DNA from: Paenibacillus taiwanensis DSM 18679
GTDB taxonomy: Bacteria > Bacillota > Bacilli > Paenibacillales > Paenibacillaceae
Assembly (NCBI RefSeq): GCF_000425125.1
Contig: NZ_AULE01000023.1
Location: forward strand, 248,001 to 312,000
DNA length: 64,000 nt
Reading direction: 5' to 3'
A model generated the notes under the pieces. The model had not been told where the DNA came from, ran no database searches, and was given only the letters and a program-made list of their open reading frames with translations. Shown piece by piece: positions 17,790 to 42,273 of the stretch. A program made the translations under genes and the position numbers. Position 1 is the first letter of the stretch, and each line of letters begins with the position of its first letter.

Positions 17790-18055
17790 TTTGAATATCG
17801 TTTGTTTCACTCTCCCGATAGCTCAGGCAGATGCTAGTCTGTTGACACCCTTTTAAAAGGATTTTAAAAGGATGGGCAGTTTGGATAGGCAGTTTCTGAG
17901 TCAAGGGGAGAGTGAAGCTAAGGACGCGGATAAGATATGGATAGTAGTTGAGCAGGTGTCGCTACAACTATCTGCGTACATCCTAAAGGCGTGGTAACAC
18001 GATTACATGAATAACAAGATCAAATTTGTAGTGTCATGAATTACAAATTTCAAAA

Positions 18056-18069
18056 GTGAACTTTTTCAC
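18056..18069. promoter_or_regulatory. Rex-type operator 1
   Basis: GTGAA-CTTT-TTCAC has the exact core of the Rex consensus TTGTGAA-N4-TTCACAA. Rex is a repressor that leaves DNA when NADH is high. It lies 58 bases from an equal site. Confidence 0.6.
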
Positions 18070-18113
18070 ATGAATGATATCGCTAACGTGATAATATAAA
18101 AGTAAGTTATTAA

Positions 18114-18127
18114 GTGAAAATATTCAC
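18114..18127. promoter_or_regulatory. Rex-type operator 2
   Basis: GTGAA-AATA-TTCAC, the same half-sites and spacing as operator 1, about 100 bases before the reductase start. Two exact cores within 75 bases are unlikely by chance. Confidence 0.6.
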
Positions 18128-18229
18128 TATTATCAAAATTACATTTTGATGTGAATTACGAATTTTGCTTAATGACAGTAGAGATAGAGCTAGGGTTAGC
18201 ACTAAACTAGGCTGAAAGGGAGTATTTTA

Positions 18230-19645
18230 ATGAAGAAGTGGGTAGCAACAGTATTATCGGCTGTGATGGTGATGTCCATGTTAGCTGGTTGCGGCAGTAA
18301 AGGGGAAACGGCGGATGTTGTTGTAGTTGGAGCAGGCGGCGCAGGTCTGTCGGCTGCGGTTAAAGCAACAGAAGACGGAGCTAAAGTTATCGTTCTTGAG
18401 AAGATGCCAATGGTCGGCGGCAACACAACGCGTGCGACAGGCGGCTTAAATGCAGCGGGCACCAAGCAGCAAATAGAAAAAGGGATTAAAGATAGCCAGC
18501 AACTATTTTTCGAGGATACGATGAAGGGCGGATATGATAAGAACAATCCGGATCTTGTTCAAGTCTTAACGACAAATGCCAAAGGTTCCGTCGAATGGCT
18601 TGAGGGCTTTGGCGCAGATTTGTCTGACGTAGGCCGGATGGCGGGTGCCAGCGTGAATCGGACACACCGTCCTACAGGCGGCGCAGCTGTAGGTTCGCAT
18701 ATTGCTTCGGTATTGGACAAAACAGCTAAAGCTAAAGGTATTGACGTGCGCACGCGTAATGAACTGACAGAGATCGTGACGGATAAAGACGGTAATGTAA
18801 CGGGTGTCAAAGCAAAAGATAAAGAGGGCAAGGAATATACTATTAACGCAAAAGCTGTCGTGTTGGCAACAGGCGGATTCTCTGCCAACCAAGACATGGT
18901 CATGAAGTACAAGCCTGAACTAAAAGGTTTTGCCACTACCAATCACCCTGGTGCAACAGGAGAAGTGATGGATATGGCTAACAAGCTTGGTGCAGGACTT
19001 GTTGATATATCGGAAATACAAACACACCCGACCGTAGTGCCTGATAAAGGTGTGATGGTAACAGAAGCTGTTCGTGGCAACGGGGCCATCTTATTAAACA
19101 AAGAGGGTAAACGATTTGTAAATGAGCTGTTAACACGTGATGTTGTGTCCAAAGCGATTTTGGAGCAAAAAGACGGGCGCGCCTTTTTATTTTTTGACAA
19201 AGGGATGCGTGATAGCTTAAAAGCTACAGAAGAATATTTTAATATGAGTTTGGTTGCAGAAGCAGACAGCGTAGAGGCGCTGGCTGAAAAACTTAATGTA
19301 GATAAAGCAGTTATGTCCGAGTCTGTAAAAGAGTACAATGGGCTGGTTAAGGCGGGTAAAGATAGCCAATTCGAACGTGCTGATTTGCCTCGTGAGCTAA
19401 ACAAAGGTCCTTATTATGCGATCGAAGTTACACCTGCTGTTCACCATACGATGGGTGGTCTCAAAATTAATACAGATGCACAGGTGTTAAAAGAGGATGG
19501 CACGATTATGAAGGGATTATTTGCAGCTGGTGAGGTAACGGGCGGCGTGCATGGCGGCAACCGTCTTGGTGGCAACGCGCTGGCTGATATTATTACATTT
19601 GGCAAGATTGCAGGCACAAACGCAGCAAAGTTAGTAAAATCCTAA
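18230..19645 (+). CDS. Secreted fumarate reductase-type flavoprotein (FAD subunit, lipoprotein)
   Basis: A 471-residue lipoprotein with signal MKKWVATVLSAVMVMSMLAGC (Cys 21 would be lipidated). FAD binding is shown by VVVVGAGGAGLSAA and by GLFAAGEVTGGVHG near the end. Residues known from flavocytochrome c fumarate reductase are in place: QTHP, GKRFVNE, TRD, HHTMGG and GGNRLGGNA. There is no haem domain and no FMN domain in this chain; a separate FMN-binding lipoprotein follows 80 bases later. In Listeria the extracellular FrdA carries both. Inference: it reduces fumarate or a related enoate outside the membrane with electrons from the EET chain. Urocanate-type reductases are an alternative. 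Confidence 0.87.
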   Translation: MKKWVATVLSAVMVMSMLAGCGSKGETADVVVVGAGGAGLSAAVKATEDGAKVIVLEKMPMVGGNTTRATGGLNAAGTKQQIEKGIKDSQQLFFEDTMKGGYDKNNPDLVQVLTTNAKGSVEWLEGFGADLSDVGRMAGASVNRTHRPTGGAAVGSHIASVLDKTAKAKGIDVRTRNELTEIVTDKDGNVTGVKAKDKEGKEYTINAKAVVLATGGFSANQDMVMKYKPELKGFATTNHPGATGEVMDMANKLGAGLVDISEIQTHPTVVPDKGVMVTEAVRGNGAILLNKEGKRFVNELLTRDVVSKAILEQKDGRAFLFFDKGMRDSLKATEEYFNMSLVAEADSVEALAEKLNVDKAVMSESVKEYNGLVKAGKDSQFERADLPRELNKGPYYAIEVTPAVHHTMGGLKINTDAQVLKEDGTIMKGLFAAGEVTGGVHGGNRLGGNALADIITFGKIAGTNAAKLVKS

Positions 19646-19725
19646 CCTAGCTAATAAGAACTGGTATAACTATAAAGCGAGTATAGCGAGTAAGTGATTA
19701 AATGGATGCAGGGGAGAGATTGACG

Positions 19726-20070
19726 ATGAAAAAAGCAGCTTCGTGGGTGGCACTTGGTCTTGCGGCAGCATTGCTGTTGTCTGGTTGTGGCGGCGCTGGT
19801 AAATATAAAGATGGAACATATGAAGGAACAGGCCGTGGAGCATCGAGCGACATTAAAGTGGCGGTAACGGTAAAAGCGGGCAAGATCGAGAGCATTGAAC
19901 TGAAAGAACATGAAGAAACTGCACAGTTAATTGAAGCAGTTAAAGAGAATACAATTCCTGATATTGTGACGAAGCAGGATACGGCAGGTGTAGAGGCATT
20001 AACGGGTGCAACCAAATCTTCAGAAGGTGTACTTGCTGCCGTGAAGCAAGCACTGGAGCAAGCCAAATAA
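19726..20070 (+). CDS. FMN-binding domain lipoprotein
   Basis: A 114-residue lipoprotein: MKKAASW start, lipobox LLSGC, then one FMN-binding domain of about 80 residues (KYKDGTYEGTGRGASSDIKV start). The flavinylation site is E-A-L-T-G-A-T at residues 90-96, where Thr96 should carry FMN added by ApbE; the usual Asp at the first place is Glu. It follows the FAD lipoprotein in the same operon and probably is its electron-donating partner, matching the FMN domain that Listeria FrdA carries in cis. The ATG at 19726 has GGGGAGAG upstream; an in-frame ATG eight codons earlier is less likely. Confidence 0.87.
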   Translation: MKKAASWVALGLAAALLLSGCGGAGKYKDGTYEGTGRGASSDIKVAVTVKAGKIESIELKEHEETAQLIEAVKENTIPDIVTKQDTAGVEALTGATKSSEGVLAAVKQALEQAK

Positions 20071-20086
20071 TTGTAACTCCATAGGA

Positions 20087-20115
20087 AAGGGGCCGTTCAT
20101 TAGAGCGGCCCTTGT
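20087..20115 (+). terminator. Hairpin after the FMN lipoprotein gene
   Basis: AAGGGGCCG pairs with CGGCCCTT, followed by a poor T tract (TTGTTAC). Probably the operon terminator. Confidence 0.5.
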
Positions 20116-20367: not shown

Positions 20368-20393
20368 ACGTGATTGATGGGAGGAATTCGGCT

Positions 20394-23713: not shown

Positions 23714-23789
23714 AGGCATATCTCCTCACTTAGCTATAAAATAAAAAGTCTAGGTATTACATTAATATTAAACTGATTATAGCGATAAA

Positions 23790-23964: not shown

Positions 23965-25326
23965 TTACAGCAGCAGACTAGAGAGGCCGAAGCCGATTGT
24001 GACCGCTGATACTGTTGCTACTATGCCTGGCAGCATAAAGCTGTGATTGAGCAGGTATCGGCCTATTCGCGTCGTACCTGTACGGTCAAAGTTGATAGCG
24101 GCAATGACGGTAGGATAGTTCGGGATAAAGAAATATCCATTAACCGATGGGAACATCGCAATTAACGCCGGCGCGGGTATGCCTACGGCTAGTCCAAGCG
24201 GCATGAGTCCACGTACGGTTGCTGCTTGTGAGTTGAGCAGAATTGACATTACAAACAAAGCAAAGGCAAACATCCACGGCGCAGCGGTGACGATATCTCT
24301 AATCGCCCCATCAATCATTTCCATGTTGCCGCGGAAGAAGGTGTCGCCCATCCATGCGATACCAAAAATGCTGATAACGGCCTGCATGCCAGCCGTAAAG
24401 ATGCCGCTTGTAACAACTTTGGCTGCCGAGGCACGCGTGGCGAGCAAAATGAGCGCACCGGCTGACAGCATCACAATCTCAACAATTTGCGGCATACCGA
24501 GCGTCTGCAATACGCCTTCGGCATCGGTCCAACTAGGTCGCAAGCTTGGGAAGGAACCAAAGAAGACAACGCCGAGCACACCTAGCAGGAACAAGACGAC
24601 GGAGAGTGCCGCGCCGCGTTGTTTCACCTCTCCTGTTGACGCTGTTGACTGTTCTTGGGCGGAGCCGGAGTTGGAACGTTCGTTCATTCCTATTGGCAGC
24701 ACACTGCCTTCTTTAACACGGCGATTAAATTCCTCATCTTCCGCCAGCGGCTTGCCATATCGGCTCATGACAAGCGCACCAAGTGCGCATCCGATCAGTG
24801 TCGCGGGAATACTAACCATAAGGATATCCGGCAAATGATAACCTTTGGGCGCGAGCAACGCCAATAGCGCAACAGTCGCTGCCGAGATTGGACTTGCTGT
24901 AATCGCCTGTTGTGATGCGATTACAGCAATAGACATCGGGCGCTCTGGCCGCACGCCAGACTGACGCGTTACTTCGGCGATGACGGGCATGACCGAATAC
25001 GCCACATGCCCAGTACCGGCGCACAACGTAAACAAATAGGTTACGACGGGCGCCATAAAAGTAATATGCTGCGGATTGCGGCGCAAGGCACGTTCGGCTA
25101 AGCGGACGAGAACATCCATGCCGCCAGCGGTTTGCATAATGGCGGTAGCCGTTACAACTGCTGCAATCATCAGCATCACATCAATTGGCGGCTCGCTTGG
25201 CGTTAAGCCGAAGCCAAATGTCAGCACGGCTAACGCCAAGCCGCCGATGACACCTAGGCCAATCCCTCCAAGGCGGGAGCCGAAATATAGGGCGAGGATA
25301 ACGATTAATAATTGGAGTCCAAACAT
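23965..25326 (-). CDS. Anaerobic C4-dicarboxylate transporter, DcuA/DcuB family
   Basis: A 453-residue membrane protein with about ten helices. The N-terminal half follows the DcuA/DcuB pattern closely: ALYFGSRLGGIGLGVIGGL, AAVVTATAIMQTAGGMDVLV, LRRNPQHITFMAPVVTYL, TLCAGTGHVAYSVMPVIAE and AVIASQQAITASPISAATVA. The family exchanges fumarate, malate, aspartate and succinate during fumarate respiration. A charged loop of about 60 residues near 200-260 separates the halves. The gene lies downstream of apbE on the same strand with a terminator between, and 4 kb from the secreted fumarate reductase, which fits anaerobic C4 metabolism. Confidence 0.85.
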   Translation of the reverse strand: MFGLQLLIVILALYFGSRLGGIGLGVIGGLALAVLTFGFGLTPSEPPIDVMLMIAAVVTATAIMQTAGGMDVLVRLAERALRRNPQHITFMAPVVTYLFTLCAGTGHVAYSVMPVIAEVTRQSGVRPERPMSIAVIASQQAITASPISAATVALLALLAPKGYHLPDILMVSIPATLIGCALGALVMSRYGKPLAEDEEFNRRVKEGSVLPIGMNERSNSGSAQEQSTASTGEVKQRGAALSVVLFLLGVLGVVFFGSFPSLRPSWTDAEGVLQTLGMPQIVEIVMLSAGALILLATRASAAKVVTSGIFTAGMQAVISIFGIAWMGDTFFRGNMEMIDGAIRDIVTAAPWMFAFALFVMSILLNSQAATVRGLMPLGLAVGIPAPALIAMFPSVNGYFFIPNYPTVIAAINFDRTGTTRIGRYLLNHSFMLPGIVATVSAVTIGFGLSSLLL

Positions 25327-25463: not shown

Positions 25464-26564
25464 TTACTTTAACTCAGCAAAATGATAAGCCTCGTTGGTA
25501 AGCTCGAAGTATTTTTTGATGCCAGAGGAGCAATACACTTTCTGGTCTGTCGTAATAAAGATAGCCTCTGCCTCAGTTTTGGACTCAATAAAAGCCATGC
25601 CTTCTTGTAATCCAAGTGAGAACGCGGATGTGGACAATGCATCTGCATCAGTAGAGCGATCGGTAACAATGGTCACGCTATTGAGATTGTTTACGACAGG
25701 ATAACCTGTTGTTGTATCCAAAATGTGGTGATAATGCTTGCCGTCTTTAACAAAATAGCGCTCGTATACCCCTGATGTGACAATTGTTTTGTCCGCTACC
25801 TTCATGCGGCCAATCTGGTTGCCTCTTGATTCGTTCGGATCTTGGACGCCGATCGTCCAGTCTACACCGCCAGGCTTCTGACCAACGGCGTATATGTTGC
25901 CGCCAAGGTCGATAATGGCACTTTTATAGCCTTGATCCCGCACGTAGTCGGCAATTACATCGGCAGCGTAGCCTTTGCCAATGCCCCCTAAATCAAGCAC
26001 CATATCCGGCTCAAGGGAGATGGTCATGTTGTTTTTGTCCAGCTTGACCTTGTTGTAGTCAAGCAGCTTGAGGCCTGCCTCAATTTCTGTCTTGGCCGGC
26101 ACTCTGGCATCATCGTGTCCGATGTTCCACATGTTGACGAGTGGACCGATGCTTGGATCAAAGCGCCCGTGTGTGCGTGCTGCATAATCAAGCGATGTTT
26201 CGATGACTTGGTATAAGGGCTTCGAAACTTGAAAAGGACCTTTACCAGCCTGGGCATTCAGCTTATACAGCTCACTCGTTTCCAATGTTCGGCTCATTTC
26301 ACTTTCAATGTCTTTCATAAGGGAGTTGATATGCTCGAAGTCTTGATCACTTGCGCGCGAATCGTATATTTTCACAGTCACAATAGTATCAAATATAAAG
26401 TATGATTTGGTCTTCACATCTTGCTGCGCCGTTGTGCCACCCTTTTCTGACGTTTGATCAGCACTACTTCCGCATCCGCTGAATAATAGAGCCATCGATA
26501 AAGCCACAATAAGGACAGACCCGAGGCGGTGCAATGGTAAACGTGAAGTCGAATGTGGTCTCAT
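25464..26564 (-). CDS. apbE: FAD:protein FMN transferase lipoprotein (ApbE/FmnB)
   Basis: A 366-residue lipoprotein with lipobox LLFSGC near residue 31. The ApbE domain shows FIFDTIVTVKIYD, LDLGGIGKGYAAD (FAD and metal contacts), DLGGNIYAVG and the catalytic region ILDTTTGYPV. ApbE proteins split FAD and attach FMN to a Thr or Ser in target flavoproteins outside the membrane. The likely targets lie in this window: the FMN lipoprotein at 19.7 kb and the two-domain PplA at 41.3 kb. In Listeria the matching gene is fmnB of the EET locus. Start supported by GGAGG nine bases upstream. It is divergent from eetA. Confidence 0.93.
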   Translation of the reverse strand: MRPHSTSRLPLHRLGSVLIVALSMALLFSGCGSSADQTSEKGGTTAQQDVKTKSYFIFDTIVTVKIYDSRASDQDFEHINSLMKDIESEMSRTLETSELYKLNAQAGKGPFQVSKPLYQVIETSLDYAARTHGRFDPSIGPLVNMWNIGHDDARVPAKTEIEAGLKLLDYNKVKLDKNNMTISLEPDMVLDLGGIGKGYAADVIADYVRDQGYKSAIIDLGGNIYAVGQKPGGVDWTIGVQDPNESRGNQIGRMKVADKTIVTSGVYERYFVKDGKHYHHILDTTTGYPVVNNLNSVTIVTDRSTDADALSTSAFSLGLQEGMAFIESKTEAEAIFITTDQKVYCSSGIKKYFELTNEAYHFAELK

Positions 26565-26799: not shown

Positions 26800-27192
26800 A
26801 TGAAACGTGGAGACTTAATCCTGATTGGAGTAGTCATAGTGGCGGCCTTGGCTTTCTTCGTACCCAAATGGCTTTTTCAAAATCAAAGTGAAAATATGCA
26901 CAATGCTAATGTGTATGCCGAAATATCGGTTGATGGAAAATTGTTTAAAAAGGTAAAGATCACTAAAGAAGAGCAGCTTATTCCAGTTAAAACAGACCAC
27001 GGCCTAAATGTGCTGAAAGTACATGACGGTGGCATTGAAATGTTTGATGCGGATTGTCCGGACAAAGTGTGTCTGTCCTTCGGTTTTGTCACAAGGGCTG
27101 GCGATACAATTGTATGCTTGCCGCATCGCGTCTTGGTAGAACTGAAGAGTGAGAGCGGAGAGGAGAGTGACCTCGATGCCGTCGTCAGTTAA
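26800..27192 (+). CDS. eetA: EetA-like protein (NusG domain II, membrane-anchored)
   Basis: A 130-residue protein with one N-terminal membrane helix (residues 6-25) and an outside domain of the NusG_II family (VYAEISVDGKLFKKV start). It has Cys86, Cys91 and Cys106 in DADCPDKVC and IVCLPHRV. In Listeria EetA is required for extracellular electron transfer and works with EetB; its chemistry is not settled. It overlaps eetB by 17 bases and is followed by ECF transporter genes, so the unit is eetA-eetB-ecfA-ecfA'-ecfT. Start supported by AAGGAG nine bases upstream. Confidence 0.85.
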   Translation: MKRGDLILIGVVIVAALAFFVPKWLFQNQSENMHNANVYAEISVDGKLFKKVKITKEEQLIPVKTDHGLNVLKVHDGGIEMFDADCPDKVCLSFGFVTRAGDTIVCLPHRVLVELKSESGEESDLDAVVS

Positions 27193-27733
27193 GTTAAGCG
27201 ACACTTCGCTTAAGCTGAAGAAGGCGGTTATTATCGCGATCTTTAGTGCGGTTGCAGTCGTACTTGGGATATTGGAATCGTTGCTGCCAACACAGCTTAT
27301 TATACCTGGTGCAAAGCTTGGACTCGCCAATATTATGGTGCTTACTTGTTTATATTTCTTGAAGGGACGAGACGCCTTTACGCTTGTCATTCTCAAAACG
27401 TTGCTTATGACATTGCTTCTTGGCACCTTCTCCGCATTTTTGTTCTCTTTTTTAGGCGCGTTGTTCAGCTTTGTTGTCATGTACGGCTTAATGAAAATCG
27501 GTCGTGGACATATTAGTTTACTTGGCATTAGCGTGGTTGGTGGCGTTGCTCACAATATCGGTCAATTAACAGCTGCGGTCATTGTATTTAAAACTTCCAA
27601 AATCTTTTATTATTTGCCGCCGTTAATGCTGCTTGGAGTCGTGACCGGAATATTTATCGGTATCGCTGTTAAATATGTTGTTGCTTCCTTGTCTAAGTTA
27701 TCGATATTTGAACCATTTGTGCCAGAGAACTGA
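27176..27733 (+). CDS. eetB: EetB-like membrane protein (Gx transporter family)
   Basis: A 185-residue protein with five or six membrane helices of the Gx transporter family (Hpre_diP_synt_I in Pfam): IPGAKLGLANIMVLTCLYFL, GLMKIGRGHISLLGISVVGGVAHNIGQLTAA and LLGVVTGIFIGI. The family is related to ECF S-components. Older annotation as heptaprenyl diphosphate synthase component I is probably wrong for this protein. I prefer the ATG at 27176, ten bases after GGAGAGGAG, over the upstream in-frame start at 27149; a GTG at 27167 is also possible. In Listeria EetB acts with EetA to pass electrons from the quinone pool outwards. Confidence 0.83.
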   Translation: MPSSVKLSDTSLKLKKAVIIAIFSAVAVVLGILESLLPTQLIIPGAKLGLANIMVLTCLYFLKGRDAFTLVILKTLLMTLLLGTFSAFLFSFLGALFSFVVMYGLMKIGRGHISLLGISVVGGVAHNIGQLTAAVIVFKTSKIFYYLPPLMLLGVVTGIFIGIAVKYVVASLSKLSIFEPFVPEN

Positions 27734-29615: not shown

Positions 29616-29618
29616 CAT

Positions 29619-30550: not shown

Positions 30551-32533
30551 GTGGCGAGATATTTTAACGGTAAAGAAATTGAACTGTTGGCTCCTGCTGG
30601 AACTTTTGAAATTTTTAAATCGGTTATAGACGCTAATTGTGATGCCGTTTATTTTGGGGGACCCTCTTTAAATATGCGGATGATGCGTAAGGGGTACAAT
30701 TTAAGCTACGATGAAGTAAGTGAAGCAATTAACATGACACGTGCCCGTGGGAAACGTGCGTATGTTACGGTGAATAACCTGCTCAATGAAGAAGACTTAG
30801 AGGAAGCAAAACGATATTTTGAATTTTTGAACAAAGTCGGGCCCGATGCGATTATTTCTCAGGATCTGGCTGTGTTCCCGTTGATTCAGCAATTAAATCT
30901 TAATAATATTCCAGTTCATTCATCCGTGATGATGAATGTGCATAACCTCGAAATGATTGAGGCGATGCGTGATATGGGAGTGACCCGTATCGTGGCATCC
31001 CGTGAGATGGATTTGCATACTGCAGAGCTGCTGCAAACGAAGACGGGAATGGAATTTGAGTACTTTGTTCATGGTGACATGTGTACGGTACACGGGGCAA
31101 ACTGTTTGTACAGCGCTATGCTTTATGGCAACAGCGCGAGCAGAGGGCGTTGCATGAAGCCTTGCCGCTGGGATTATCGGGTGAAAAAGGATGGTAATGT
31201 TTATCCGACTGAATATCCACTCGCGGCAAAAGATATGTATATGTATGAACATATCCCTGAGCTAATCAAGTCTGGTATTACATCCTTTAAGCTAGAGGGA
31301 CGTATGCGCGACATTGAATTTTTATCGATGGTCATAAACAGCTATGGTGAAGCTATTGATCGTTATATTGCAGATCCGCTTGGCTATAATCGTCAAGAGG
31401 GTGCGGATACGTTGTATGAGAACCGTAAACGCGACTTCTCCACCGCTTATGCGTTTGGTAAGCCAGGTCTGGATTATATTAATACTCGCTATGAAGGCAC
31501 AGGCAAGTTCTACAGCACAGGTAAAGTATTCAGCACGCCTACAGCTGAGCGGGAGATGAAAGAGGAACGACTTGTTCAGGTTCGTGATACATTGGGTGCT
31601 GTGCAGCGTCAACCGGAGGGAACAGGGCCGAAGCCTGCTCTATCCGTTCACGTTAATAACATGGCGCAAGCGCGGGTAGCGATTGAAGAAGGGGCAGACT
31701 ACGTATACTTAACTGGGGATGTGTTCCAACCCGATCGACCGTTTAATCGTGCGGAAATAGAGCAGCTTACGGCAGAGAAGGGTACGGCTCAAATTTTGTT
31801 AGGGATGCCTCGGATGATGACTGAAATGCATATGGAGCAGTACAATCATTTTCTGAAAAATGGTACTAATCATAATTACTATGGACTTGATGGACTGTTA
31901 GCTTCTAATATTGGCGCTATGCGCAAATTCCGTGATCTTGGTCTGCCCATGATTGCCGACTTCTGTGTTAACGTATACAACCATATGTCAGCTGATGTGT
32001 ATCGTAATCAGTTTAACATGGAGCGTGTGCATGCATCTTTGGAGCTGCCGTTAAATGATCTTAGTAATTTGCTGGCGCACGCCAAGACGCCAGTTGAAGT
32101 TATCGTTCACGGTTCTCCAATCGTAATGTATTTGGAACTGGATTTGTATGAAAATGCGGCCACGTTGGAGCCGATCGCACAGGAAAACAATCAATATGTC
32201 GATAATCAGTACCTTGTTCTTTTGACTGATAAAGGGGAAAATCCAATCTATCGGGATTGGAGCGGTCGCAACCATTTGGCGCTTGCAAAGGAACTTTGTT
32301 ATTTGCCGCTGCTGAAGGAGCTGCATGAAGCAGGTGCTAATCACTTCCGCATTGAAGGCAAGACGTATACGCCTGAACAATTGCGTCAAATTGTCCGTGT
32401 GTATCGCAAAGCAACCGCGGATTTGTCGCAGTGCGGCAACCTGTTTGAACAGATGAAGCCAGTATACGCCGGTTATACGCTTGGGTCTTTACAATTCGGG
32501 ACGGCGTTGAATTTGGAGCTGACAGAGGCTTAA
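30551..32533 (+). CDS. Tandem U32-family Fe-S protein (peptidase U32 / UbiU-RlhA-like)
   Basis: A 660-residue protein that starts at GTG after GAGGAGG. Residues 1-300 form a full U32 domain, ELLAPAGTFE...DAVYFGGPSLNMR, with the 4Fe-4S cysteines 178, 185, 201 and 205 (CTVHGANC, GRCMKPCRW) and FKLEGRMRD. A second U32-like half follows (LSVHVNNMAQARVAIEEGADYVYLTGD) without this cysteine set. U32 members with Fe-S clusters hydroxylate quinone rings without oxygen (UbiU-UbiV) or modify tRNA and 23S rRNA (TrhP, RlhA). RlhA has a similar length. The gene heads an operon that ends with a quinone-type prenyltransferase, so a quinone role is plausible. That part is inference. Confidence 0.85.
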   Translation: MARYFNGKEIELLAPAGTFEIFKSVIDANCDAVYFGGPSLNMRMMRKGYNLSYDEVSEAINMTRARGKRAYVTVNNLLNEEDLEEAKRYFEFLNKVGPDAIISQDLAVFPLIQQLNLNNIPVHSSVMMNVHNLEMIEAMRDMGVTRIVASREMDLHTAELLQTKTGMEFEYFVHGDMCTVHGANCLYSAMLYGNSASRGRCMKPCRWDYRVKKDGNVYPTEYPLAAKDMYMYEHIPELIKSGITSFKLEGRMRDIEFLSMVINSYGEAIDRYIADPLGYNRQEGADTLYENRKRDFSTAYAFGKPGLDYINTRYEGTGKFYSTGKVFSTPTAEREMKEERLVQVRDTLGAVQRQPEGTGPKPALSVHVNNMAQARVAIEEGADYVYLTGDVFQPDRPFNRAEIEQLTAEKGTAQILLGMPRMMTEMHMEQYNHFLKNGTNHNYYGLDGLLASNIGAMRKFRDLGLPMIADFCVNVYNHMSADVYRNQFNMERVHASLELPLNDLSNLLAHAKTPVEVIVHGSPIVMYLELDLYENAATLEPIAQENNQYVDNQYLVLLTDKGENPIYRDWSGRNHLALAKELCYLPLLKELHEAGANHFRIEGKTYTPEQLRQIVRVYRKATADLSQCGNLFEQMKPVYAGYTLGSLQFGTALNLELTEA

Positions 32534-32697: not shown

Positions 32698-34008
32698 GTG
32701 AACAGTGCGACAAATGTCATTCATGATCAGACCTATATCGGGCCAGAGGGTGTGCTTGCGAAGCGAAAAGAGTATTTTTATCCGTGCACGCATCATTTTT
32801 ACAAGCAGCCGCCGCAAATTGTACGGGGCAAGATGCAGTATCTATACGACAACGAGGGCAAATCTTATGTCGATTTTTTTGCGGGCGTATCGGTTGTAGC
32901 CTGTGGCCATTGTAATGATCGGATTACAGCAAAGACGATCGAACAGCTTCAAACTTTGCAGCATACGACGACGATATACTTGACACAGCCTATGGTAGAT
33001 TTGGCTGAGCGCTTGGCCAATGGTGTGCTACCAGGTGAACTGAAGCGGACCTTTTTTTGCAACAGTGGATCGGAAGCAAATGAAGGTGCCATGCTGCTCG
33101 CCCGCCTTCATACGAAACGCCGTCATTTTATTGCATTGGAACAAGGTTTGCACGGGCGAACTTTTTTGACGATGGGTGTGACCGGTATACCGATGTGGCG
33201 CTCTGATGATTATTTAGATACAGGAGTAGCCTTCATTCCTCGGCCCTATCAGCCCGATACCGATATCGATACCGCGGCACGTCGCTCTGTGGAGGCGCTT
33301 CGCGAACTGCTGGCTGCGAAAGGGGACACCTTTGCGGCAATGATTGTGGAGCCAATCCAAGGAAACGGCGGCATGATGGTACCTCCCGACTGGTACTTCA
33401 AGGAGGTCAAAGCCTTGTTGGAGCAGCATGGCGTGCTGCTGATTGCTGATGAAATCCAGACGGGATTTGGCCGCACAGGCCGTATGTTTGCGATGGAGCA
33501 TTACGGTGTTGTGCCTGATATCCTGTCGATGGCCAAAGCACTTGGAAACGGTGTGCCGATCGGCGCATTTGCGACAACGGACCAAATTGCGGCCAGCTTT
33601 AATCGGCCTTCAGCCTCAACGTTTGGCGGCAATCCAGTATCTTCTGCGACAGCTTTAGCCGTGCTCGATTATATCGAGCAGGAAGGCTTGGTAGAACGTT
33701 CCGCTCAAGTTGGCGGGAAGCTAATTGCAGGGTTACGCGCTTTACAGGCGAATTATACGGTCATTGCGGATGTACGAGGCAAAGGGTTTATGGCAGGTGC
33801 AGAATTGCGCGGAGCGGATGAGCAGGCGAGTGCGGAACTGACGGACCTTGTCTTGGAGCAGATGAAGGACCGGGGATTCATTATTGGAAAAAATGGGGTT
33901 GGCCGTAATGTGCTTGCCTTCCAGCCACCTATTATGATGCCAGAAGAAGATGTCGAGGCTATGCTGACCGCACTGGAAGCGGTCTTGGCCGACGTGACAT
34001 CAAGGTAG
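32698..34008 (+). CDS. Class III aminotransferase
   Basis: A 436-residue PLP enzyme. FFCNSGSEANEGA, the Asp in LIADEIQTGFGRTG and the PLP lysine Lys280 in SMAKALGNGVPIG are all present. The overall pattern is close to alanine-glyoxylate or omega-amino acid transaminases (AGXT2-like). The start is GTG after AGAAGGGTGG. It lies between the U32 and prenyltransferase genes and ends 12 bases before the latter, so it is part of that operon. Its substrate is not evident. No known step of menaquinone synthesis needs a transaminase, which makes the linkage notable. Confidence 0.87.
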   Translation: MNSATNVIHDQTYIGPEGVLAKRKEYFYPCTHHFYKQPPQIVRGKMQYLYDNEGKSYVDFFAGVSVVACGHCNDRITAKTIEQLQTLQHTTTIYLTQPMVDLAERLANGVLPGELKRTFFCNSGSEANEGAMLLARLHTKRRHFIALEQGLHGRTFLTMGVTGIPMWRSDDYLDTGVAFIPRPYQPDTDIDTAARRSVEALRELLAAKGDTFAAMIVEPIQGNGGMMVPPDWYFKEVKALLEQHGVLLIADEIQTGFGRTGRMFAMEHYGVVPDILSMAKALGNGVPIGAFATTDQIAASFNRPSASTFGGNPVSSATALAVLDYIEQEGLVERSAQVGGKLIAGLRALQANYTVIADVRGKGFMAGAELRGADEQASAELTDLVLEQMKDRGFIIGKNGVGRNVLAFQPPIMMPEEDVEAMLTALEAVLADVTSR

Positions 34009-34020: not shown

Positions 34021-34896
34021 ATGGAATTAATTCATAAGGTTATTCACAAAACGCGAATGTTTGGCGAATTGGTGATGTTCTCACACACTCTGTTTTCGCT
34101 GCCATTTGCGATCATATCGATGGTCTGGGCGGCACAAGGTGTGCCGTCTGGACATATTCTGCTCTGGTCGCTTATTGCTCTGGTCGCCGCGCGGAATGGA
34201 GCCAACGCCTTTAATCGTATCGTCGATCTGAAATTTGACGCTGCCAACCCGCGCACAGCGCATCGACACATGCCACGCAAGCTGCTGCTTGAACGTGAGG
34301 TGTACATCTTTGTCGTGGTGAACTTTGCCATCTTTATACTTGCAGCAGGGATGTTAAATGCATTGTGTTTATGGCTGTCGCCTGTTGCCATCGTGCTCAT
34401 TTGCTCTTATTCGTACACCAAGCGTTTTACTTGGCTGTGTCACTTGTATTTGGGCTTTACCATTGCTTCAGCCCCTGTTGGAGCGTGGTTTGCTGTTACT
34501 GGTGAATTTGCAGTGACACCGTTTGTGTTAGGCACGATTGTGATGTTGTGGATTGCTGGATTTGATATCATTTATGCTACACAGGATATTGAATTTGATA
34601 GCAAAACAGGATTGTGGAGTGTGCCGCGTGTATTCGGGCTGGAGGATGCTTTATTTATCTCACGAGCAATGCATATGGTTATGGTGCTGCTGCTGCTTGC
34701 CTTGTATTTGGTTCAGCCAGGTCTCGGCTGGTTGTACCTCACGGGCATCGGAATTGCGTGTTTGCTGTTGGCGATTGAACACAACATTATTAAGCCAGCC
34801 AGCCGCAAACGGATGAACGTAGCGTCATACAACTTAAACCAGATTATTAGTATGGTGATCTTGTTTTGTACGTTGACAGATCAATTTCTGTTGTAA
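34021..34896 (+). CDS. UbiA-family prenyltransferase, MqnP-like
   Basis: A 291-residue membrane protein with about eight helices. The two Asp-rich motifs that bind prenyl diphosphate and magnesium are NRIVDLKFD (65-73) and DIIYATQDIEFD (182-193). The NAFNRIVD...ANPRTAHR form and the FDIIYA..DIEFD block recall the ubiA_other/MqnP group of the futalosine pathway rather than MenA. In Listeria a prenyltransferase (DmkA) makes the demethylmenaquinone used for EET; this protein is the candidate counterpart. It ends the U32 operon at a strong terminator. Assignment to a specific ring substrate is not possible from sequence alone. Confidence 0.83.
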   Translation: MELIHKVIHKTRMFGELVMFSHTLFSLPFAIISMVWAAQGVPSGHILLWSLIALVAARNGANAFNRIVDLKFDAANPRTAHRHMPRKLLLEREVYIFVVVNFAIFILAAGMLNALCLWLSPVAIVLICSYSYTKRFTWLCHLYLGFTIASAPVGAWFAVTGEFAVTPFVLGTIVMLWIAGFDIIYATQDIEFDSKTGLWSVPRVFGLEDALFISRAMHMVMVLLLLALYLVQPGLGWLYLTGIGIACLLLAIEHNIIKPASRKRMNVASYNLNQIISMVILFCTLTDQFLL

Positions 34897-35421: not shown

Positions 35422-35424
35422 CGT

Positions 35425-36877: not shown

Positions 36878-37408
36878 TTACACCTTCGGGTTTAAACCCG
36901 ATGGAGTCGGCTCTTGCTCCATTGCATAATCGAAATCCTCGATATCATAGATCGGTACAGGAATTTCGTGTTCGATGATGCGGCTCACATATTCAAATTG
37001 GTCCGTTAATAACGGCGCCTGCTCGCGTATGCTCGTTAAGATGAGCTCCGTCTCAATCGGATCAAACACTTCACCATAGCGCATATTGTCCATCGCATTT
37101 ATGATGACGCAGGCAACATTGTTTTGCAATAGCAGCGGAGGGCTGCTGCGCCACGGTGCGCTAAGGGCTCGTTCAATCTTCTTTTTGTTGAGATCAGTTT
37201 CGAAGAAGCCAATCAAAGCATCCATCTGCTGCTTGGCCAGCCTATCTTCTTCCGGGTCTGGCATGACTCGCTCACCGCTTTGGCGCATTTCATATAGTTC
37301 TGCGATCGTCGTGTAAGGGATCAGAAATTGAACCGGTCTGTTGGGTACGAGCAGGTGACCGTATGCGGCTAACATAACTGCTTCAATGACAAATTGCCGA
37401 GTCTGCAC
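36878..37408 (-). CDS. Conserved protein of unknown function
   Basis: A 176-residue soluble protein that starts with GTG (VQTRQFVIEAVMLAAYG) eight bases after AAGGAGG. It ends in an acidic tail. Mixed alpha and beta content is likely; there is no signal peptide or membrane helix and no recognisable active site. It lies downstream of the prenyl diphosphate synthase gene on the same strand, but 240 bases and a terminator separate them. I do not recognise the family. Confidence 0.65.
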   Translation of the reverse strand: MQTRQFVIEAVMLAAYGHLLVPNRPVQFLIPYTTIAELYEMRQSGERVMPDPEEDRLAKQQMDALIGFFETDLNKKKIERALSAPWRSSPPLLLQNNVACVIINAMDNMRYGEVFDPIETELILTSIREQAPLLTDQFEYVSRIIEHEIPVPIYDIEDFDYAMEQEPTPSGLNPKV

Positions 37409-37607
37409 GGTCAAACCTCCTTTGTGATGTGACACATACACACCATTCCATAATAACACCATGCCCGATCACACGGAAGAGTAAACGGGGGAGTACGCCT
37501 GAGAGACGCAGCATGGTATTGGCGCGTGCATAGTGATGCCAGGGGAGTAGTCTTCGGTGCCACATAATTGTAACGCGTGGACTGACTGGGATATGAGATA
37601 TAAATAA

Positions 37608-37647: not shown

Positions 37648-38643
37648 TTAATAAGTCCGTTCTTCAAAATAACGCCATAACGTCTGCAAATCACGATGGG
37701 CTGGATATGAAGCTAATTGCTCAGTAATGCTCCAGGCACGATTCATAAAGTGCTGACTTTGATCTAACGCGAGTCCTAACGCGCCACTGTCACGAATGAG
37801 TCCCACTGCTTCATCAAATTGCTCCACCGTGGAATCTGCCCCCAGTTGAAGCAGCTTTTTGCGTATATAAGGGTCCTCCATAGCCAGCATGGCGGGGAGT
37901 GTCACTTGTCCGTTACGCAAATCAGCTCCTGCTGGCTTGCCCAATGTATCGGCTGACTGCATGTAATCTAACACATCGTCGCGAACTTGGAAAGCCATGC
38001 CTAGTTGGTCGCCAAACTCGTGCAGCAGCTCGATAACTGCATCATCCGCGAGTCCGGCTTGTGCGCCTAGCTGTAAGGCCGTTGCCATCAGCAAGGCTGT
38101 TTTGTTACGTGTCTTTTCCCAATATTGTTCTAATGGGACATCGAATTTGTAACGCTGGTCCATCTGTTGGTATTCGCCAAGGCAAAGCTGCGTTGTCGTG
38201 ACGGCCGTAAGATCTTTAACGTAGTCTTCCAGATTGCCCTTTTGCTCAGTCAGCAATTCAACGACACGACACATCATATAGTTTCCGATAAAGACGGCTG
38301 TTTTCGGATCCGTCTTCTTGTGCAGGGCGGGTTGACCTCGTCTTGTGTCTGCCTGATCCAGAATGTCATCATGAATAAGTGACGCTGCATGTATGAATTC
38401 ACACACCGAAGCGAGACGATATACATTATTATTTTCAGGATCACTGCCGAAACGACTACCGACAATAACCATAATTGGACGCAATCGCTTACCGCCGGCT
38501 CGAACGAGTTCAATTACATTTCTTGTAATGACCGATCGTGAAGTCAAATCCTCATCGTAGGTTACAATCCGCTCCAGATCGCGGTTGATACGCTTTAACG
38601 AAACGTGAAGTTGATCCGCCAAAGAGAGGCTAGATAACATCAT
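37648..38643 (-). CDS. Long-chain trans-prenyl diphosphate synthase, large subunit (HepT/DmkB-like)
   Basis: A 331-residue trans-isoprenyl diphosphate synthase: GGKRLRP, first Asp-rich motif LIHDDILDQADTRRG, GNYMMCR and second motif QVRDDVLDY. The residues before the first Asp motif are small (AASL), which fits a long product. The protein should extend FPP to a heptaprenyl-type chain for a quinone tail. Its start overlaps the preceding small gene by 14 bases. In Listeria DmkB plays this part in the EET quinone branch. The nearby ndh2 and pplA genes support the same role here. Confidence 0.88.
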   Translation of the reverse strand: MMLSSLSLADQLHVSLKRINRDLERIVTYDEDLTSRSVITRNVIELVRAGGKRLRPIMVIVGSRFGSDPENNNVYRLASVCEFIHAASLIHDDILDQADTRRGQPALHKKTDPKTAVFIGNYMMCRVVELLTEQKGNLEDYVKDLTAVTTTQLCLGEYQQMDQRYKFDVPLEQYWEKTRNKTALLMATALQLGAQAGLADDAVIELLHEFGDQLGMAFQVRDDVLDYMQSADTLGKPAGADLRNGQVTLPAMLAMEDPYIRKKLLQLGADSTVEQFDEAVGLIRDSGALGLALDQSQHFMNRAWSITEQLASYPAHRDLQTLWRYFEERTY

Positions 38644-39112
38644 ACGTCACCTGCTTAAAGCGCTGCGTGGACTTGTATCGACGCAAGTATCGTTTCGATA
38701 CGAATCTGCACAATCGCTGGTGAAGTTGCGTTTCTATGGTGCGGGAGCCTTCTGCCCGGCGAATTTGCACAAGCTTCATCGTCTTTGCCAAGTCGGCAAT
38801 AAGGTCAACGAATCCATGCCGCAGTGCAAATTGCAAATAGAAGCTTTGCAAGAAGTCTCCATCCAGTACGCCACGTCCGACGTGATCCGGATGAGTTGGC
38901 AGATGATCATGGCTGCGAATGGACTGAAGCAACAGCCAATAACAGCCTAGGAGCACTCGACGGTCTTGCTGCTCCATGTCATAACCGACTAACACCTCTG
39001 CCATGTCCAGCAGGATAGGCTCGTCTGCGCCCGCATTCAAATGAATTCCCGTTTGCGCAGGAAGTTCTTGCATTAGAAGTTGGTTCGTTTCTTGTAAGAG
39101 TTGCCGGTTCAT
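38630..39112 (-). CDS. Probable small subunit of heterodimeric prenyl diphosphate synthase (HepS/HexA-like)
   Basis: A 160-residue helical protein. The block GVLDGDFLQSFYLQFALRHGFVDLIADLAKTM recalls HepS of the Bacillus heptaprenyl synthase, where a GDYYSG..YY.L segment lies at the same place. At 160 residues it is shorter than Bacillus HepS (about 250) and nearer the small subunit HexA of Micrococcus (about 140). No Asp-rich motif is present, as expected for a chain-length partner. Overlap of 14 bases with the large subunit gene indicates translational coupling. The assignment rests on pattern and position and is not certain. Confidence 0.6.
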   Translation of the reverse strand: MNRQLLQETNQLLMQELPAQTGIHLNAGADEPILLDMAEVLVGYDMEQQDRRVLLGCYWLLLQSIRSHDHLPTHPDHVGRGVLDGDFLQSFYLQFALRHGFVDLIADLAKTMKLVQIRRAEGSRTIETQLHQRLCRFVSKRYLRRYKSTQRFKQVTYDVI

Positions 39113-39175: not shown

Positions 39176-39208
39176 GTTTATCGAGTGAAGCCTATTCTTA
39201 TTTACGTA

Positions 39209-41083
39209 TTAATCCGTATAAAGGTACCATTTTTTGACGAACGGAACTTTCTTCCACATCCGTTTCAGGCGTGGGTACAAGTAGTAGTCCAGACCAAGCG
39301 TGCTGCCGGAACCACCGATCAGTGCGAAAGCACCGAAGACATACCATAACATCTCATATGGAGCCATACCGGATGTATAGATCATAACACCCATTGCAAT
39401 GGTACCAAGTGAAGCGATTGCCGTAAACAGACCTAGAATCAGCATAGCGCCGAATACAATCTCTGCAATAACCATACCGGTTTGGAAGAAATGAGCCAAT
39501 CCAGTAAATCCACCATCAGCTGTATAGAAGAACGTATCCATAGACCAGTCAACCATGTTCTTGATAAAACCTGGAACCGGAATCGCCTCAACTGCTGTTT
39601 TTGCACCTTCAACTGCGGAAGCTGCTGTATGTGCGTCAACGGTTTCCTTAACGGCGTCAATTGCCTGAGAAGCTCCAGTGGTACCATCTGTAACCTTAGC
39701 AGGAATCAAGAAGATCTTGCTTGGATCAGTAATAACCTTTTGTAATTTCTCAATGCCTTCTAGCAGCCATTTACCACCGATAAAGATACGAAGTGGCACT
39801 AACCAGAAGTTAGGCGAACGCATAGCCAAGTGACCGCCTACAAAGCTGCGATTATTTTTCACACGGAAAAATTCGTGAATCTTGTAAGACCATACTTTGT
39901 AGAAACCAAGCACCTGAATAAAGTAAACCATGTTGATCAGATGTTTAAAGAGCATAGCCATAAAGCCCGTGCAGTTAAACATCTTGCCAGGCATACCAAC
40001 AGAAGCTACGCCGTAACGACCACCGATACATACCATCGTGCCGTGGAAGGTCGGTTTATACGATTTTTTCGTACCATTTTTAATATCAGCTGTAATATTA
40101 TGTGCAATTATTCCAGCGGAATGCTCCGCATTTTCTACCATCTGCGGTACAGGACGTTCTTCGCCTTCTGGGATGTAGAAAATGTTGTCACCTACGACAT
40201 ACACATTTTCATGATCAACAGATTGCAGCTTATCATTAGTTACGATACGTTTACGACCGTTCTGTTGAACATCCAGATTGCCAACAAGCTCGGAGCCTTC
40301 GACACCAGCAGTCCATACGACCGTTTGCGCTTTAACGTCACCTTTGTCACCAAGCACGACAGAGTTTTCGGTCACGCCTGTAATTTTAGCACTTGTAATC
40401 ATTTCTACATTCATCTTGGTCAAATACTTCTCAGCCTTCTTAATCAGCTTGTCCGGCAAGATTGGCAAAATTTTAGGTGCCATATCAGCTACAACAAGAC
40501 GAACTTCAGAAGGATCAACGTGGAACTCATGGCAGAGCTCTTCACGATATTCAGCAATTTCACCAATTAATTCGACACCCGTAAAGCCTGCACCAACGAC
40601 TACAAAGGTGAGCATTTCTTTACGCATCTCTGCATTTAGTTCTTTGGTCGCTTTCATGAACATGTCACGAATTTGGCGTTTCAAAAGAACAGCATCCTCA
40701 AAAGACCAGAGCGTCATGGAATGCTCTTCTGCACCTGGAATACCAAAGAAGGAAGGCTTACATCCGGTACCGATAACTAGATAATCATAATCATAAGATT
40801 GTTTGCGGCCTTTAAGTGATTTCCCGTTAAAGTCAATGTTAGTAACTTCATCTAACACTACATCTACTTTACGACCCGCAAAAATTTGCTTCAAATCCAT
40901 TTTGATGGCATCTTCATCGACTCGGCACGCTGCGACTTCATGCAGCTCTGTCATCATCGTATGGTAAGGTTTGCGGTCAATCAGCGTGATGCTGACGTCT
41001 TTGTCTTTATTTAGACGTTTAGCCAGCTTCTTCGCTGTGAGAACACCACCATATCCGCCGCCCAATACAACGATCTTTTTCAT
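39209..41083 (-). CDS. ndh2: Type II NADH dehydrogenase with C-terminal membrane extension (Ndh2)
   Basis: A 624-residue protein. Residues 1-400 are a full NDH-2: FAD motif VVLGGGYGGVLTAKK, NADH motif FVVVGAGFTGVE, VWTAGV and YVVGDN. After residue 430 comes an extension (LVPLRIFIGGKWLLEGIEK and four or so further helices to the end) of the DoxX type. Normal NDH-2 is about 400 residues and only peripheral. The extended form is the hallmark of Ndh2 in the Listeria EET locus, which feeds NADH electrons to demethylmenaquinone. It lies 212 bases after pplA on the same strand and before the prenyl synthase genes. The N-terminal MKKI start is clear. Confidence 0.92.
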   Translation of the reverse strand: MKKIVVLGGGYGGVLTAKKLAKRLNKDKDVSITLIDRKPYHTMMTELHEVAACRVDEDAIKMDLKQIFAGRKVDVVLDEVTNIDFNGKSLKGRKQSYDYDYLVIGTGCKPSFFGIPGAEEHSMTLWSFEDAVLLKRQIRDMFMKATKELNAEMRKEMLTFVVVGAGFTGVELIGEIAEYREELCHEFHVDPSEVRLVVADMAPKILPILPDKLIKKAEKYLTKMNVEMITSAKITGVTENSVVLGDKGDVKAQTVVWTAGVEGSELVGNLDVQQNGRKRIVTNDKLQSVDHENVYVVGDNIFYIPEGEERPVPQMVENAEHSAGIIAHNITADIKNGTKKSYKPTFHGTMVCIGGRYGVASVGMPGKMFNCTGFMAMLFKHLINMVYFIQVLGFYKVWSYKIHEFFRVKNNRSFVGGHLAMRSPNFWLVPLRIFIGGKWLLEGIEKLQKVITDPSKIFLIPAKVTDGTTGASQAIDAVKETVDAHTAASAVEGAKTAVEAIPVPGFIKNMVDWSMDTFFYTADGGFTGLAHFFQTGMVIAEIVFGAMLILGLFTAIASLGTIAMGVMIYTSGMAPYEMLWYVFGAFALIGGSGSTLGLDYYLYPRLKRMWKKVPFVKKWYLYTD

Positions 41084-41133
41084 GGTTTTGTTTCACCCCT
41101 GCTGTGAAATTTAAAATTTAGTATAGTCTCCAT

Positions 41134-41160
41134 AATTTAAATACAAAAGATTTAAATTTA
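41134..41160. promoter_or_regulatory. AT-rich inverted repeat before ndh2
   Basis: AATTTAAAT (41134-41142) and TTTAAATTTA (41151-41160) closely match the element at 30502-30529 in arms and spacing (one base difference). It lies 51 bases before the ndh2 start. Confidence 0.35.
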
Positions 41161-41295
41161 AGCTACATGTTATCAAGAATGGAGCCCCGCCGCAGAAAAA
41201 GCTGTGATGTTTTCCACACTAGGTGTAATTCATACGCTTTTTTATGCAACGGAGCTGCCAATAGTCTGCTTCTGTATACTTAGACTAGAAATGAA

Positions 41296-42147
41296 TTATT
41301 TTGCAGAAGCGAGTGCTTCTTGAGCCAATTTAACAAATCCGCCTACATGGACTGATACACCTGTTACTGCATCTTGTGTACCATCTTCTTTAACGACAAG
41401 CGCCGCAGGATCTTGTTTTGCGATCAACTCATCTTCCATTTTTTTAGCTTGCTCATGCCAGTTCATACCGTAAGTACCAGCAATGGATTTTTGTTTTTTT
41501 GTTTCTTTACCATCTTTGTTGATGTTATCCCAGTTAGCTGCAACGATTTGTCCGTTAAATACTGTTACATCAACTGTTTCTTTCCAACCTTTATCGTCAA
41601 AATCTTTGCCTTCAGCATGGTATCCGCCATCTTTGAATTGACCTGCTTCAACAGGGCCTGCTGCCAATGCTTGGTCAGCCAAAGTAACAAAATCACCTAC
41701 GTGAATGGATACGCCAGACACAGCATCTGTTTTGCCTTCTTTAACTGCGATTGCTTTAGGATCTTGCTTTTCAATAAGTGCATCTTCCATTTTTTTAGCT
41801 TGCTCGTGCCATTCGGATTGAGCACCGCCTGCTTTCATGCCATATTTGCCGGATTCAGAAAGTTGTTTTTTAGTATCGCCGGCTGTTTTTGTGTTAGCGC
41901 CATCCCAATTAACAGCTGTAATTTTGCCGTCTTTTACTTCAAGTTTGACCATGTACATCCAGCCTTTATCATCTGGTGTACCTTTAGCAAAGTAGTTGCC
42001 GTCTTTATATTGACCTTGCTCTGCACCTGCAGATGGTGTTTCAGTTGATGTTTCTGGTTGTTTAGCTTCTTCTTTTGCTCCACCACATCCTGCTAGAAGA
42101 CCAAATGCCAATACTGCTGTACAAAGCAATGCTAATTTCTTTTTCAT
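41296..42147 (-). CDS. pplA: Two-domain FMN-binding lipoprotein (PplA-like)
   Basis: A 283-residue lipoprotein: signal with lipobox LLAGC near residue 21, a Thr/Glu/Ala linker, then two FMN-binding domains of about 110 residues each (QYKDGNYFAKG and QFKDGGYHAEG starts, each with DDKGWM or DDKGWK and WHEQAKKMEDALI or ELI). Flavinylation motifs are DAVSGVS (141-147) and DAVTGVS (259-265); the acceptor would be Ser rather than Thr, and Val replaces the usual Ala. In Listeria PplA carries electrons from the membrane to outside acceptors. It lies before ndh2 on the same strand. GGTGGAG precedes the ATG. Confidence 0.92.
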   Translation of the reverse strand: MKKKLALLCTAVLAFGLLAGCGGAKEEAKQPETSTETPSAGAEQGQYKDGNYFAKGTPDDKGWMYMVKLEVKDGKITAVNWDGANTKTAGDTKKQLSESGKYGMKAGGAQSEWHEQAKKMEDALIEKQDPKAIAVKEGKTDAVSGVSIHVGDFVTLADQALAAGPVEAGQFKDGGYHAEGKDFDDKGWKETVDVTVFNGQIVAANWDNINKDGKETKKQKSIAGTYGMNWHEQAKKMEDELIAKQDPAALVVKEDGTQDAVTGVSVHVGGFVKLAQEALASAK

Positions 42148-42245
42148 CTTACATCTCCACCTTTTGTTTTGGAAAATTTTTTTGTTTTGAAGATCGTTGA
42201 GTAAAATATACTTTGTGAAAATTTTATCTAACTAGCCACAAGTAC

Positions 42246-42273
42246 ATTGTAACACTTTATCACAAACTTGCAA
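42246..42273 (-). promoter_or_regulatory. Sigma-A promoter of pplA
   Basis: On the minus strand TTGCAA (42273-42268) and TACAAT (42251-42246), 16-base spacer, about 100 bases before the gene. The rest of this 302-base divergent gap to the PadR gene is AT-rich, with no gene seen. Confidence 0.6.

Follow-up and report, generated by a model that had tools for sequence, protein, structure and literature searches.

We analysed a stretch of 64,000 nucleotides from Paenibacillus taiwanensis DSM 18679 (the window; G000:C4:248001-312000 in our notation, where G labels a genome, L a fetched locus, and G000 is the genome holding the window, 5.25 Mb in 20 contigs). It carries a locus for flavin-based extracellular electron transfer (EET) that, judged from its genes, is almost certainly of the known Listeria type, and within this locus a gene for a U32-family protein (U32) and one for a class III aminotransferase (AT3) form a tightly linked unit with an MqnP-like ubiA gene. 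The original prediction had named the EET and fumarate-respiration families between positions 17790 and 42273; searches with Pfam and NCBIfam profiles found all of them encoded there, and support both a Listeria-type flavin EET gene content and an extracytosolic fumarate reductase with a C4-dicarboxylate transporter. Overlooked at that stage were a HepS2-like open reading frame (ORF) at 38630-39112 and an FNT gene at 16804, just outside that interval. Literature is cited below by PMC number, in each case for parts of the source. The genes of the locus are as follows (FAD, flavin adenine dinucleotide; FMN, flavin mononucleotide; ECF, energy-coupling factor; PLP, pyridoxal phosphate).

16804..17718, plus strand: FNT formate/nitrite channel gene near the frd genes (PF01226, 263.5 bits; TIGR00790, 239.1 bits, cut-off 232.3)
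18230..19645, plus strand: secreted lipoprotein fumarate reductase, FAD domain only (match to 1d4c, E 1.9e-158; lipobox LAGC)
19702..20070, plus strand: small FMN-binding lipoprotein (PF04205, 54 bits; motif EALTGAT)
23965..25326, minus strand: DcuA/DcuB C4-dicarboxylate transporter (PF03605, 492 bits; TIGR00770 above cut-off)
25464..26564, minus strand: ApbE/FmnB flavin transferase (PF02424, 298 bits)
26800..27192, plus strand: EetA (PF07009, NusG_II, 97.5 bits)
27206..27733, plus strand: EetB, ECF-S-like FAD-export subunit (PF07456, 152 bits; role after PMC9973259); the start is our choice, the longest ORF beginning at 27149
27850..28674, plus strand: EcfA (TIGR04520, 310.5 bits, cut-off 315)
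28647..29615, plus strand: EcfA' (NF010155, 323.6 bits, and TIGR04521, 317.1 bits, each under its cut-off)
29619..30410, plus strand: EcfT/FmnA-like protein, CbiQ-type ECF-T (PF02361, 146.5 bits)
30551..32533, plus strand: U32, two Peptidase_U32 barrels (PF01136) with CX6CX15CX3C; probable iron-sulfur (Fe-S), oxygen-independent hydroxylase
32698..34008, plus strand: AT3, class III PLP aminotransferase (PF00202, 341 bits)
34021..34896, plus strand: MqnP-like UbiA prenyltransferase of the EET cassette (TIGR01475 above cut-off)
36878..37462, minus strand: orf194, 194-residue protein downstream of hepT2, without a Pfam match
37648..38643, minus strand: HepT2, second polyprenyl diphosphate synthase, DmkB-like role (PF00348, 214.6 bits; 33% to housekeeping HepT)
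38630..39112, minus strand: HepS2-like small subunit (hhalign match to housekeeping HepS)
39209..41083, minus strand: Ndh2, type II NADH dehydrogenase with C-terminal membrane extension (PF07992, 138 bits; full-length relatives)
41296..42147, minus strand: PplA-like lipoprotein with FMN-attachment-like motifs DAVSGVS and DAVTGVS
42450..42992, plus strand: PadR, divergent from pplA, a candidate regulator only (PF03551, 66 bits)

Components of the electron transfer locus

Pfam models identify ApbE, EetA, EetB and the ECF-T gene in the locus. In Ndh2, which is 99% identical to the Ndh2 of Paenibacillus sp. ACRRX, the Pyr_redox_2 domain (PF07992) covers residues 3-321 of 624 and a hydrophobic stretch occupies residues 538-556 of the C-terminal extension. 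By model score the PplA call is the weakest of all the families named (NF041941, 78 bits, cut-off 325; PF04205, 20.5 bits, cut-off 22); it was made from these weak matches together with two motif sites, a lipobox and a position next to ndh2 in relatives. Of 30 PplA-like sequences, 27 have two D-x-x-[ST]-G-x-[ST] sites, two have one and one has none. A scripted pattern recognised the lipoboxes of FrdA, the FMN protein and PplA; that of ApbE, FSGC, was read by eye and is not matched by the pattern. The HepS2-like ORF gave no match in a Pfam search, and hhalign aligned it with the housekeeping HepS over 76 columns (probability 87%, E 3.9e-6).

EetB is described as an FAD-binding, ECF-S-like exporter subunit required for flavinylation of PplA; 291 genomes have its gene beside ECF-T genes and 796 have it beside ECF-A/A' genes, frequently in what looks like one operon (PMC9973259). 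That EetB-EcfAA'T might instead import a flavin or vitamin, rather than export FAD for ApbE, would agree with ECF transporters being mostly importers, yet the Listeria EetB is an FAD-binding protein on which PplA flavinylation depends, and eetB is often found beside ECF genes and apbE (PMC9973259); we consider an import role very improbable. In one fetched locus, a single 501-residue ORF (L127:15260-16765) appears to be an EetB-EcfA fusion, a type of fusion reported in other genomes (PMC9973259).

The fumarate reductase is of the flavocytochrome c type (TIGR01813, 541.8 bits against a cut-off of 285) and aligns over its full length with the flavocytochrome c 1d4c. Its FMN domain is separate from the reductase chain, as a 122-residue protein of its own, and this small lipoprotein is the probable electron partner of the reductase. 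Fumarate-reductase-like genes whose FMN domain is encoded by a neighbouring gene have been counted in 189 clusters from 171 genomes (PMC8238504).

Conservation of gene order

By strand, the genes run FNT-frdA-FMN lipoprotein (plus), dcu-apbE (minus), eetA-eetB-ecfA-ecfA'-ecfT-U32-AT3-ubiA (plus), orf194-hepT2-hepS2-ndh2-pplA (minus) and padR (plus). Gaps of 3-164 bases and one overlap separate the genes from eetA to ubiA, so that a single transcript for this run is plausible. We searched 29 named loci around Ndh2 relatives with the window proteins by tblastn, from which locus counts were taken where possible because the ORF caller drops some overlapping genes. The arrangement in which pplA-ndh2-hepS2-hepT2 faces ubiA-AT3-U32-ecfT-ecfA'-ecfA-eetB-eetA recurs, whole or as far as the flanks extend, in many Paenibacillus and in both Brevibacillus loci. 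Of the 29 loci, 16 show UbiA, AT3 and U32 together, including two of Clostridium with a different gene order (L043, L047); several of the others have flanks too short to judge. The locus had been described as rearranged and split into units, which is apt relative to Listeria and fails within the clade, where this order recurs; a chance patchwork was likewise rejected on the conserved order.

The fumarate part varies more: of eight same-genus relatives fetched, five (L172, L174, L175, L176, L179) have frdA, dcu and the FMN gene next to their EET genes. All eight have an FNT gene in the ~20 kb fetched around the EET locus. In five Paenibacillus loci (L021-L024 and L026) orf194 holds the identical place after hepT2, and padR also adjoins pplA in L002, L009, L010 and L021.

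Linkage of U32, AT3 and ubiA

The distribution survey covered 246 Paenibacillales genomes, an even draw from a larger group; 212 of them have a completeness of 90% or more and a contamination of 5% or less. Presence was set at E<=1e-120 for U32, AT3 and Ndh2 and at E<=1e-85 for UbiA. U32 occurs in 58 genomes and AT3 in exactly those 58; the cassette UbiA occurs in the same 58 and in one more (G161). Ndh2, present in 64, covers every genome with U32, AT3 or the cassette UbiA, and neither U32 nor AT3 reaches threshold in any of the 182 Ndh2-negative genomes. U32 and AT3, and AT3 and UbiA, lie within 5 kb of each other in 58 of 58. The original prediction had treated the U32 protein and the aminotransferase as mere new partners of the EET genes, a description that this linkage to ubiA does not bear out; adjacency by drift was rejected on linkage and co-occurrence across the 246 genomes.

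In 53 of the 58 genomes U32 is on the contig that carries Ndh2, at a distance of 20 kb or less in 52 and of 24 kb in one. A complete U32-AT3-UbiA block stands remote from ndh2 in L128, L161, L165 and L169; the last three belong to the genomes of L032, L045 and L049, from which the block had seemed to be missing, an idea thereby rejected. Six genomes have Ndh2 without U32 (G034, G040, G041, G057, G088, G161). For L034, which had likewise seemed to lack the block, one of two UbiA regions fetched from its genome (G068) is the housekeeping cluster and the other is without matches, and a further UbiA match contains stop codons. The block proteins of G232, G284 and G256 are 70-80% identical to those of the window against 66% for Ndh2, which suggests transfer of the block as a unit.

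Properties of the U32 and AT3 proteins

U32 is by sequence a double-barrel relative of TrhP, RlhA and UbiU with a 4Fe-4S motif (PF01136, 288.5 bits, cut-off 22.4; halves, 215 and 78 bits). The motif CX6CX15CX3C lies in the first half and is kept in 29 of 29 distinct sequences, the window's included, its four cysteines forming invariant columns in all 25 aligned sequences. UbiU and UbiV have four-cysteine 4Fe-4S sites, and the CX6CX15CX3/4C pattern is found in other U32 families (PMC6747719); TrhP is involved in prephenate-dependent tRNA hydroxylation (PMC6599085). Since it misses the NCBIfam cut-offs for TrhP, UbiU and UbiV (158 against 534, 148 against 440 and 56 against 275), we place U32 as a relative of this class outside those equivalogs. 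Its most likely role is that of an oxygen-independent Fe-S hydroxylase in the TrhP/UbiU class; the reading as a plain peptidase was rejected on the motif and the hydroxylase relatives. With U32 as query, PDB sequences gave no match at E 0.001 and plasmids none at 1e-60.

In AT3, K280 is invariant across 36 distinct sequences. Its best PDB matches, from 231 bits downwards, are enzymes of gamma-aminobutyrate, acetylornithine and racemase types, which do not fix its substrate. Among the matches listed from the open-licence PMC literature, no paper joined a U32 term with an EET term.

The prenyltransferase and the quinone route

The UbiA of the window had been counted with the families of the Listeria EET set, whose prenyltransferase is the MenA-type DmkA. 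It is not of that type: the profile scores place it as TIGR01475/MqnP-like (TIGR01475, a UbiA-like subfamily, 271.5 bits against 180.8), and a MenA/DmkA type was rejected. It falls under all three MqnP cut-offs (272 against 430, 232 against 420, 214 against 375), as does the housekeeping MqnP-like copy of the source genome. In a tree the cassette UbiA separates from housekeeping MqnP with unsettled bootstrap, and in a wider UbiA tree the EET branch has support of just 74/9.

The source genome has MqnC and MqnE of the futalosine route above cut-off, and a profile search found neither MenB nor MenD above cut-off in it. It also holds a MenA-type prenyltransferase for 1,4-dihydroxy-2-naphthoate (DHNA) about 77 kb before the window (L115:2692-3651, on G000:C4; NF004752, 378 bits, cut-off 289), of which relatives (56-60%, above cut-off) lie near EET genes in L124 and L126. 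Such an orphan gene without MenB or MenD above cut-off suggests that DHNA from outside is used. Two Men-type genomes were examined (G034, G040); in both, the EET slot holds a MenA-like prenyltransferase, under cut-off, which fits the menaquinone route of the host.

Relatives in Clostridia

In the class to which C. ganghwense belongs, 391 genomes were searched at a U32 threshold of E<=1e-70, and 12 of them, with C. ganghwense among these, contain relatives; the clostridial genomes carry no completeness value. Beyond L043 and L047, 11 loci were fetched. UbiD and UbiA stand beside U32-AT3 in five (L144-L147, L154), UbiA only in L149, and neither in five (L148, L150-L153), of which L148 and L151 are short contigs. 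UbiX is present in three of the 11 (L146, L147, L154) and in L043 and L047, Pfam-checked in two. In the fetched loci, EET genes adjoin U32-AT3 in L149, L151, L043 and L047. The cassette UbiD is 61-79% alike between the clostridial L043 and L147 and L029, L030 and L131; for the comparison with the housekeeping UbiD in G000 the figure is 33-37%.

In the 13 clostridial genomes of these loci, neither MqnC (best 50.6 bits) nor MenD (best 86.4 bits) was found above cut-off, and in two no MenB was; the remaining Mqn and Men route genes were not searched in the 13. In a gut genome set, mqnP, mqnL and mqnM were found only with the Mqn pathway (PMC4746308, in the part of the text drawn on here), a rule that these Clostridia, without MqnC above cut-off, would break.

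Genes for an NMT1-like lipoprotein binding protein, ATP-binding cassette (ABC) transporter components or both accompany U32-AT3 in L043, L047 and eight of the 11 other loci (L144-L149, L151, L154), and are a candidate importer of a quinone precursor. Exchange of quinone precursors has been proposed by authors who state that nothing is known about it (PMC4746308), and these genes would offer a candidate importer for it. In L067, a distant relative (30%) adjoins a distant MenA-like gene. These genes, in genomes without MqnC or MenD above cut-off, favour scavenging, in which a soluble precursor (DHNA or a related aromatic acid) would be taken up and the cassette would activate it for prenylation, as does the orphan MenA-type enzyme of the source genome. 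That genome nevertheless has futalosine genes for the head group, and the EET operons of the window contain no such ABC genes; scavenging of this kind seems improbable.

Proposed pathway and its alternatives

From the observed gene content, linkage, co-occurrence, family membership and motif we infer an electron path, substrates, a product and reactions for U32 and AT3, and give slightly better than even credence to a flavin EET chain of Listeria type served by a dedicated quinone branch that includes U32 and AT3. Ndh2 would oxidise NADH and reduce a membrane quinone; the quinol would pass electrons to FMN-bearing PplA and on to iron, electrodes and flavins, and also, by way of the small FMN lipoprotein, to the secreted reductase for fumarate. 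FAD would leave through EetB-EcfAA'T, and ApbE would attach FMN outside. HepS2/HepT2 would supply the quinone tail, which the MqnP-like UbiA would couple to a head group, probably 1,4-dihydroxy-6-naphthoate supplied by the futalosine route, and UbiD would carry out a decarboxylation. U32 and AT3 would act in one pathway with UbiA, U32 most likely as the hydroxylase for the head group or for a precursor of it, AT3 as a PLP enzyme before or after that step. We thus read the U32-AT3-UbiA block as a putative oxygen-independent quinone cassette for EET. An amino-quinone is thinkable at most, because amine-bearing naphthoquinones can support Ndh2-dependent EET in L. plantarum (PMC12455635).

Several observations weigh against this proposal. 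The reported FMN-attachment motif is D-x-x-[S/T]-G-A-[S/T] (PMC12052999), and the PplA sites are mostly DxxSGV[S/T] or DxxTGV[S/T], with Gly-Val instead of the canonical Gly-Ala in 52 of 56 sites from the window and 29 relatives; with valine in place of alanine, one model protein kept about 50% of its flavinylation (PMC12052999). Deletion of eetA gave no EET phenotype in Listeria (PMC9973259), and dmkA and dmkB are dispensable for EET in L. plantarum (PMC9888254). Fisher's test for co-occurrence gives p 5.6e-50, a value far too small since the genomes are related and non-independent. The cassette is absent from Ndh2-positive G057, and from G041 and G088, which have MqnC and, near pplA or ndh2, a MenA-type gene above cut-off.

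Three further points of this kind also favour a simpler scheme, in which the MqnP-like UbiA and HepS2/HepT2 would make plain demethylmenaquinone from futalosine naphthoate while U32 and AT3 travel along in an unrelated anaerobic role, such as RNA hydroxylation or amino-acid metabolism. The nearest kin of U32 by single sequence are RlhA and TrhP, both RNA hydroxylases; G161 has the MqnP-like ubiA without U32 or AT3, so that the prenyltransferase may act without them; and L150, L152 and L153 hold U32-AT3 pairs with no UbiA within about 20 kb. Against such passengers stand the absence of both genes at threshold from Ndh2-negative genomes, their constant proximity to ubiA in a block that seems mobile as a unit, and the block's association with UbiD/UbiA in seven clostridial loci. 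We regard plain demethylmenaquinone with unrelated U32 and AT3 as rather unlikely.

The dedicated quinone branch can be extended to a bolder claim, which we offer tentatively and hold to be doubtful: that U32-AT3-UbiA(-UbiD-UbiX) encodes an unrecognised, horizontally moving, oxygen-independent pathway to a non-canonical prenylquinone (ring hydroxylated, possibly aminated) for Ndh2 EET, and that in Clostridia lacking both known menaquinone head-group routes it would by itself make up the complete route to the quinone, supplied with an aromatic precursor by an ABC importer dedicated to it. The three-gene block ties EET to a protein of the U32-hydroxylase class, and predicts a new quinone or a new step.

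Other features of the window

Three groups of genes lie between the EET genes and were excluded from the system.

20370-22304, plus strand: GH20 gene
22484-23719, minus strand: copper-amine-oxidase-N protein
35086-36789, plus strand: PadR and FtsW-like genes

Rfam matches over the gathering score were a purine riboswitch (13717-13816), a TPP riboswitch (49609-49721) and a T-box leader (59278-59618). Two adjoining small ORFs at 15438-16549, of 196 and 177 residues, are alike in richness in Ser, Thr, Gly and Asn.

Comparison with known systems

The Listeria monocytogenes EET cluster comprises fmnA, fmnB, pplA, ndh2, eetA, eetB, dmkA and dmkB (PMC10373932). The window shares with it Ndh2, a PplA-like protein with two attachment-like sites, ApbE/FmnB, EetA, EetB, ECF-T, a prenyl diphosphate synthase and a UbiA-superfamily prenyltransferase, and differs in having its own EcfA/EcfA' in the operon, HepS2, U32 and AT3, two facing operons, and an MqnP-like enzyme in place of the MenA-type DmkA, the MenA-type gene lying outside the window. 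Paenibacillus 'Paeni-Cedars' has seven of eight EET genes and ecfA1-ecfA2-ecfT in one operon, as in the window, whereas its dmkA is elsewhere in the genome (PMC10373932), unlike the ubiA described here; the term 'U32' occurs 0 times in the main text of that paper. The fumarate reductase shares its FAD catalytic domain with Listeria FrdA and Shewanella FccA (1d4c match as listed); Listeria FrdA carries the FMN domain in one chain, whereas in the window the catalytic and FMN parts are separate lipoproteins.

The cassette has its UbiA subfamily in common with the futalosine enzymes MqnP/MqnL/MqnM (UbiA/UbiD/UbiX; PMC4746308), and UbiD and UbiX in some Clostridia and relatives; it differs in a UbiA separate from housekeeping MqnP, in its occurrence in genomes without MqnC above cut-off, and in being joined to U32 and AT3. 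With UbiU-UbiV, TrhP and RlhA, among which UbiUV are quinone enzymes, the window U32 shares the barrel and CX6CX15CX3C, and it is set apart by two barrels per chain and by scores under the TrhP, UbiU and UbiV cut-offs. The EetB-ECF exporter, the split fumarate reductase and the Paenibacillus EET operon are already in print; the new element of this locus is the putative quinone cassette.

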